Shown here: piece after piece, positions 57,140 to 58,203 of the stretch
Numbering within the stretch: the stretch's first letter is position 1
Layout: each line of letters starts with the position of its first letter
Source of the DNA: Archangium violaceum
Lineage (GTDB): Bacteria; Myxococcota; Myxococcia; Myxococcales; Myxococcaceae
Assembly (NCBI RefSeq): GCF_016859125.1
Contig: NZ_CP069338.1
Location: forward strand, 12,279,501 to 12,343,500
Length of the DNA: 64,000 nucleotides
Direction of reading: 5' to 3'
The notes under the pieces: model-generated
Seen by the model: the letters and a program-made list of their open reading frames with translations, nothing else
The model's database searches: none
What the model was told of the DNA's origin: nothing
Program-made: the position numbers and the translations under genes

Positions 57140-58192
57140 CTAACCAACGACTTCGATGCCGGGCCGACCCTCGCCCACCTCACCGATGAGGGCCACATCC
57201 ACCCCGGCCCGCTCCAACGCCCGGTACGCCTTCGCCGCGTCACGCGCCGGCACCGAGGCCAGGAGGCCCCCGTTCGTCTGCGCGTCGGCGAGCACCCACT
57301 GGATGTCCTCGGGCAGCCCCTTGGGGAAGCGCACCTTCTTCGCCACGTGGGCCAGATTCGACTTCGTCCCGCCCGGCACCACCCCCTGCTGCGCCAGCGC
57401 CGGCACCTCCGAGATGATGGGGATGCGCTCCAGGTCCAGGAAGGCCTTCGCCTTGGCCCCCGTCATCATCTCCAGCAGGTGCCCCAGCAAGCCGTAGCCC
57501 GTCACGTCCGTGAGGGCGTTCACCTTGAACTTCCCCGAGGCGAACACCTCTCCCGCCTTCTTGTTCAGCGTCGACATGAGCGCCACCACGCGCTCCGTCA
57601 GTTCCTCGGAGGCCACGCCCCGCTTGATGGCCGTGGTGGCGATGCCCGAGCCCAGCGGCTTCGTCAGCATCAGCACATCCCCCGGCTTCGCCCCGGCGTT
57701 CGTCAGCACCTTCTTCGGGTGCACCTGTCCCGTCACCGCCAGGCCGTACTTCGGCTCGGGGTCCTGCACCGAGTGCCCACCCAGGATGGGGATGCCCGCC
57801 TCGTCCGCCTTCGCCTGGCCTCCCGCGAGAATCTTCGTCAGCTCCTCCAGGGGGCGATCCTTCGGGAAGCCCACCAGGTTGAGCGCGAACAGGGGCCTGG
57901 CCCCCATGGCGTAGATGTCCGACAGCGCGTTCGCCGCCGCGATGGCCCCGAACTGGTACGGGTCGTCCACCACCGGCGGGAAGAAGTCCACCGTGCTCAC
58001 CAGCGCCATCCCCGGCGCCACACGATACACGGCCGCATCATCGTTGGTGTTGAAGCCCACCAGCGCCCTCGTGTCCTTCGCAGTCTTCAGTTGGCGCAGG
58101 ACCTGCGCCAGGTCCGCGGCCCGGATCTTGGCCGCTCAACCCGCGCAATGTGACAGTTCCGTCAGTCGGCGCGGCTTCTGATCTTCGGACAC
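57140..58192 (-). CDS. selD: selenide, water dikinase with in-frame TGA (Sec) at the active site
   Basis: The full frame starts at GTG 58192 (GAGG 6 nt upstream) and runs 350 residues to 57140 with one in-frame TGA at 58138-58136 (codon 19). The context around it is HCAG-U-AAKIRAADLAQVL, matching the Cys/Sec active-site loop of SelD. NDDAAVYRV, VDFFPPVVDDPYQFG, NALSDIYAMG, GGHSVQDPEPKYG and LTDVTGYGLLGH follow. SelD makes selenophosphate from selenide and ATP. Reading from 58060 as a shorter protein would delete the catalytic loop. It is 11 nt after the FHA gene. Confidence 0.9.
58116..58135 (-). promoter_or_regulatory. possible bacterial SECIS hairpin in selD
   Basis: Immediately after the TGA, GCGGCC (58135-58130) pairs with GGCCGC (58121-58116) around an 8-nt loop AAGATCCG. 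Bacterial SECIS elements lie directly downstream of the UGA. The fold is modest and unverified. Confidence 0.35.
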
Positions 58193-58203
58193 GGAAGGCC
58201 TCG

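Follow-up and report, generated by a model that had tools for sequence, protein, structure and literature searches.

Does the TGA that interrupts the selD frame of this Archangium violaceum locus terminate translation, or does it encode selenocysteine (Sec), and if the latter, which element of the message directs the insertion? We examined these questions in a window of 64,000 nucleotides, the whole stretch of DNA analysed here. The features on which the argument depends are the following:

57140 to 58192, minus strand: selD, encoding a selenide water dikinase (selenophosphate synthetase) of 350 residues with one predicted Sec; begins with the GTG at 58192 and ends with the stop codon 57142-57140
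58136 to 58138, minus strand: in-frame TGA, codon 19, context CAG-U-AAKI; predicted Sec in the catalytic position that SelD fills with Cys or Sec
58199 to 58202, minus strand: likely ribosome-binding site GAGG, 6 nt 5' of the GTG at 58192
58116 to 58135, minus strand: hairpin GCGGCC-N8-GGCCGC directly after the TGA, which folds here and is not conserved
58092 to 58110, minus strand: probable SECIS hairpin UGGCGCAG-GUC-CUGCGCCA, pairing conserved in Sec orthologs with compensatory changes

The frame that opens with the GTG at 58192 runs to 57140 with the TGA at 58138-58136 as its sole interruption; the codon number and context given for this TGA in a preliminary description of the locus were exact. 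If the TGA is translated, the product matches TIGR00476 at 386.6 bits (cut-off 125; E 8e-116) over profile positions 1-310 of 311, corresponding to SelD residues 9-318, and contains the Pfam domains AIRS and AIRS_C, that is, two AIR-synthase domains. SelD homology is present on both sides of the TGA, and the catalytic position near the N-terminus reads CAG-U-AAK (codons 16-22), with a lysine close after the Sec. Upstream of the start the minus strand reads ACGAGGCCTTCC-GTG, with the GTG at 58192-58190, and the GAGG that had been reported to precede it is seen there. The gene before selD is of FHA type and has its stop codon at 58206-58204, just ahead of the GAGG; siblings in the genus carry a G-rich motif, GAGG or GGGG, at the same place.

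The TGA is kept in six of the six available genomes of the genus, and it is found at the homologous codon in many other Myxococcota. Because it recurs so widely and is flanked by homology on both sides, we do not consider it a product of chance. That SelD is made as a selenoprotein through an in-frame TGA, as had been proposed, is upheld by this conservation, by the homology that crosses the TGA and by the Sec machinery of the host. Judging from sequence, we hold it very nearly certain that the gene is selD and that its product is a selenoprotein, in which SelB and a SECIS at 58110-58092 would cause the UGA of codon 19 to be read as Sec.

The host genome, a finished sequence of 12.68 Mb, encodes the pathway that such decoding needs. 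The preliminary description had named selA, selB and tRNA-Sec in advance as the genes to look for, and all three are present: selA at 485 bits, selB by its C-terminal winged-helix domain at 65 bits, and tRNA-Sec at 73 bits, over the Rfam cut-off and called by ARAGORN as tRNA-SeC with anticodon TCA. They lie scattered at distant sites along the chromosome. Second tRNA-Sec-like matches of approximately 50-60 bits, over the Rfam cut-off, were seen in G183, G142, G048 and other order-level genomes, and in G005; these may represent either genuine tRNA-Sec or Ser tRNAs.

In at least two further host genes, those for FdnG and a peroxiredoxin, a TGA occupies a catalytic position known to hold Sec:

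C1:3765643-3768903, minus strand: formate dehydrogenase FdnG (L052), TGA in ARIUHSS
C1:986500-987600, minus strand: peroxiredoxin (AhpC-TSA; L235), TGA at the peroxidatic position, contig position 987107

The FdnG gene has a hairpin loop, GGTCT, 18 nt downstream of its TGA, and 39 genomes of the host family contain strong FdnG homologs that carry the TGA. From its context, FFPKAFTGGUTRELSAYRDRY, and the strong hairpin downstream of its TGA, we predict that the peroxiredoxin gene is a further selenoprotein gene. The selenouridine synthase MnmH, considered as a second client of SelD, was rejected because it has no match in the host genome; with no enzyme of this kind detected, Sec appears to be the only use to which SelD is put in this host.

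The catalytic and decoding steps of SelD, SelA and SelB are established for these families. To the observed frame, machinery genes, TGA conservation, Sec-tied hairpin conservation and other selenoprotein genes, we add by inference from the family the catalytic role, the identity of the inserted residue as Sec and the binding of SelB to the distal hairpin. On this scheme SelB with Sec-tRNA(Sec), bound to the hairpin at 58110-58092, would insert Sec at the UGA of codon 19, and this residue would handle selenide in catalysis. SelD would then produce selenophosphate, which SelA would use to form Sec-tRNA(Sec), and because SelD makes the selenophosphate for Sec-tRNA(Sec), it would both feed the Sec pathway and depend on it. 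The products served by the pathway would include SelD itself, FdnG and the peroxiredoxin.

Which hairpin acts as the SECIS was the point on which the preliminary description needed the most revision. A hairpin fitting the bacterial model was found on inspection, but it lies at 58110-58092, outside the interval 58116-58192 that had been described. In the bSECIS model an apical loop of 3-9 nt, with a G in its first two positions, caps an upper stem of 4-16 bp and lies 16-37 nt from the UGA, a range that holds for most bacterial SECIS elements (PMC13188914). The distal hairpin agrees with this model: its 3-nt loop, GUC (58102-58100), begins 33 nt 3' of the UGA on a stem of 8 bp. Of 54 distinct myxobacterial Sec sequences 94.4% form all seven inner pairs, against 3.6% of 55 Cys sequences, and 99.2% of the cells of these seven pairs are paired in the Sec set against 54.5% in the Cys orthologs; in g11, the sister clade with Cys within the host family, the hairpin has decayed. 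Both measures in the Sec sequences were above all of 300 shuffles that preserved the amino acids and codons of each column, a comparison that overstates significance in that synonymous shuffling ignores relatedness and in that this hairpin was picked after the sequences had been viewed. The contrast between Sec and Cys sequences, together with compensatory changes in other phyla, does not depend on that choice alone. Across phyla the distal stem pairs as GCG...CGC, GCC...GGC or GCT...AGC, giving LAQVLR, LAQVLG and LAQVLS, respectively. We conclude that the SECIS is most probably this hairpin, the next after GCGGCC/GGCCGC, and the corrected position is a by-product worth keeping.

The pairing also appears to couple a residue of SelD to the RNA, in that the third base of the alanine codon covaries with the first base four codons on. 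Whether the protein has Arg, Gly or Ser at that site follows from this covariation in the stem. Another hairpin that overlaps the distal one, GGACCUG/CAGGUCC, was rejected, as its cell-level pairing in Sec sequences did not exceed the synonymous shuffles and its fold probability was 0.01.

The strongest competing explanation accepts Sec decoding and places the functional SECIS in the GCGGCC/GGCCGC hairpin, or in an element that combines the two hairpins; we consider it unlikely. The GCGGCC/GGCCGC hairpin is indeed present at 58135-58116, as had been described, and it folds alongside the distal hairpin in the window sequence with a probability of 0.99; folded in isolation it has the same probability. 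Full pairing of another proximal stem, AGATCCGC/GCGGATCT, is seen in 41% of myxobacterial Sec sequences, above shuffles, and the f2 relatives pair it well. The significance attached to GCGGCC/GGCCGC did not survive comparison, however: it is intact in only 7 of the 54 distinct myxobacterial Sec sequences (13%) and in 0% of other Sec sequences, against 99% of cells paired for the distal hairpin. The distance from the UGA to its loop, moreover, is 6 nt, short of the range of 16-37 nt, and neither of the first two loop positions is a G (PMC13188914). With conservation absent we rejected GCGGCC/GGCCGC as the SECIS, and we believe this hairpin to be probably incidental.

Returning to the distal hairpin as the probable SECIS, the distance of 33 nt from UGA to loop is near the far end of the bSECIS range and differs from the 18 nt of the FdnG hairpin; with one SelB for both, two elements that differ in spacing would be read by the same protein. 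The proximal stem found strongly paired among the f2 relatives may help to bridge this difference. Like the E. coli formate dehydrogenase hairpins and bSECIS elements in general, that of selD is a coding-region hairpin just after the Sec UGA, with a small loop that has a G in its first two positions, at 16-37 nt; what distinguishes it is the placement of the loop at 33 nt with a variable proximal stretch between.

The two remaining explanations deny Sec decoding altogether. In one of them the TGA, a standard stop codon, is a real stop, so that selD is either a pseudogene or is restarted at the in-frame GTG of codon 45, the first start 3' of the TGA, to give an N-terminally short protein. We regard this as extremely improbable: the TGA and both its flanks are kept in the six genus genomes and far beyond, the frame downstream is intact, and a restart would lose the catalytic residue together with the start of the protein. 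The host also retains a full Sec pathway, which needs SelD, and a second SelD of the same quality was not found, the other match being a distant relative at 31%. Nor do we give any real credence to a sequencing error for TGC or TGT, the codons found at this site in sister clade g11 and in many Myxococcaceae, since every sibling species has the TGA: it is read in all six assemblies from the genus and in the records that bear Archangium names (L056-L058), and the SECIS hairpin is intact as in Sec orthologs where that of the Cys sister clade is broken. A read error concealing a sense codon at 58136-58138, which the preliminary description had named as a refutation, is for the same reason unlikely.

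We note the consequences for annotation. A naive stop-to-stop annotation of this selD would be wrong, and the earlier statement that a start would be called 44 codons late is arithmetically correct for a naive caller (GTG at codon 45). NCBI annotation, on the other hand, calls full-length Sec-SelD elsewhere, the RefSeq records of Cytobacillus and Terrisporobacter being annotated across the same TGA, and the window selD therefore need not be started late. In the test genomes of a 2025 survey, NCBI annotation was reported to be correct for 195 of 298 selenoprotein genes (PMC12013277), and with this proportion the general worry over selenoprotein misannotation is a fair one.

The gene itself is sound but ordinary, one more case of a well-documented class. 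Among bacterial selenoproteins, SelD with Sec is one of the two that are commonest and most widespread, and another myxobacterium, Anaeromyxobacter dehalogenans, was listed with it in 2006 (PMC1794560). Compared with such proteins the window SelD has the same family (TIGR00476), Sec position and Sec pathway, in a related host group, and nothing essential differs; its gene stands behind the FHA-type gene and not in a sel operon. In the collection of papers searched, none of relevance named SelD or selenoproteins together with Myxococcus.

We find the repeated change of Sec to Cys among the relatives to be more interesting than the selD gene itself. At the 188 loci whose alignment covers the homologous codon, some of which represent the same genome from two collections, the codon is TGA in 121, TGC in 58 and TGT in 9, with no other codon. 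The Cys forms occur, among others, in sister clade g11, Corallococcus and many Myxococcus; they are orthologous to the Sec forms (78-88% identity between close relatives within one family) and differ in having TGC or TGT instead of TGA and a decayed SECIS hairpin. A SelD tree of 115 different myxobacterial proteins, computed with the Sec/Cys residue masked and rooted at its midpoint, needs five Sec/Cys changes, all five of them forced by the starred branches. Because the deeper sampled branches are nearly all Sec, Sec to Cys would be the simpler direction, in agreement with Zhang et al. (2006), who saw Sec-to-Cys changes in SelD and no change from Cys to Sec (PMC1794560). This mosaic among close relatives constitutes a natural experiment: the hairpin is kept with TGA and decays with a Cys codon, a contrast by which bacterial SECIS elements can be cleanly tested.

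Most of the genomes with Cys-SelD retain selB and tRNA-Sec. As one exception we point to the complete genome G096, which is without SelB and tRNA-Sec matches and has TGC at the selD codon. No genome of the host family has a TGA-containing selD without a SelB match; elsewhere in the phylum three do (G015, G031 and G036), and these are draft assemblies, 75-92% complete.

Several genomes with Cys-SelD, SelB and tRNA-Sec were searched for other clients of the pathway. No in-frame TGA was found in the molybdopterin-domain genes of G090, G051, G027, G086, G091, G097 and G104, or in the AhpC-TSA genes of the first three. When the surroundings of selB, tRNA-Sec and selA in the relatives were screened for in-frame TGAs that are conserved, non-coding frames overwhelmed the result at this G+C content; filtering by G+C at codon positions yielded no clear candidate, and also missed selD itself.

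Three Myxococcus-type genomes, G059, G082 and G080 (L236, L237 and L238), combine Cys-SelD with SelB and tRNA-Sec, and a Sec formate dehydrogenase was not found in any of them. They share a TlpA-like lipoprotein with a TGA in WAPGUHACARELPELEALR, a UxxC motif, and a hairpin after the TGA. The Sec pathway of these genomes is apparently kept for this predicted selenoprotein. If true, the lipoprotein would break the published rule by which all bacteria that use Sec carry it in FdhA or SelD (PMC1794560). Taken as a whole, the proposition that SelD changed from Sec to Cys repeatedly (approximately five times) in the host family, that the pathway was mostly kept, in some genomes for a TlpA-like client, and that the SECIS constrains the protein is one that we judge evenly balanced between being right and wrong.
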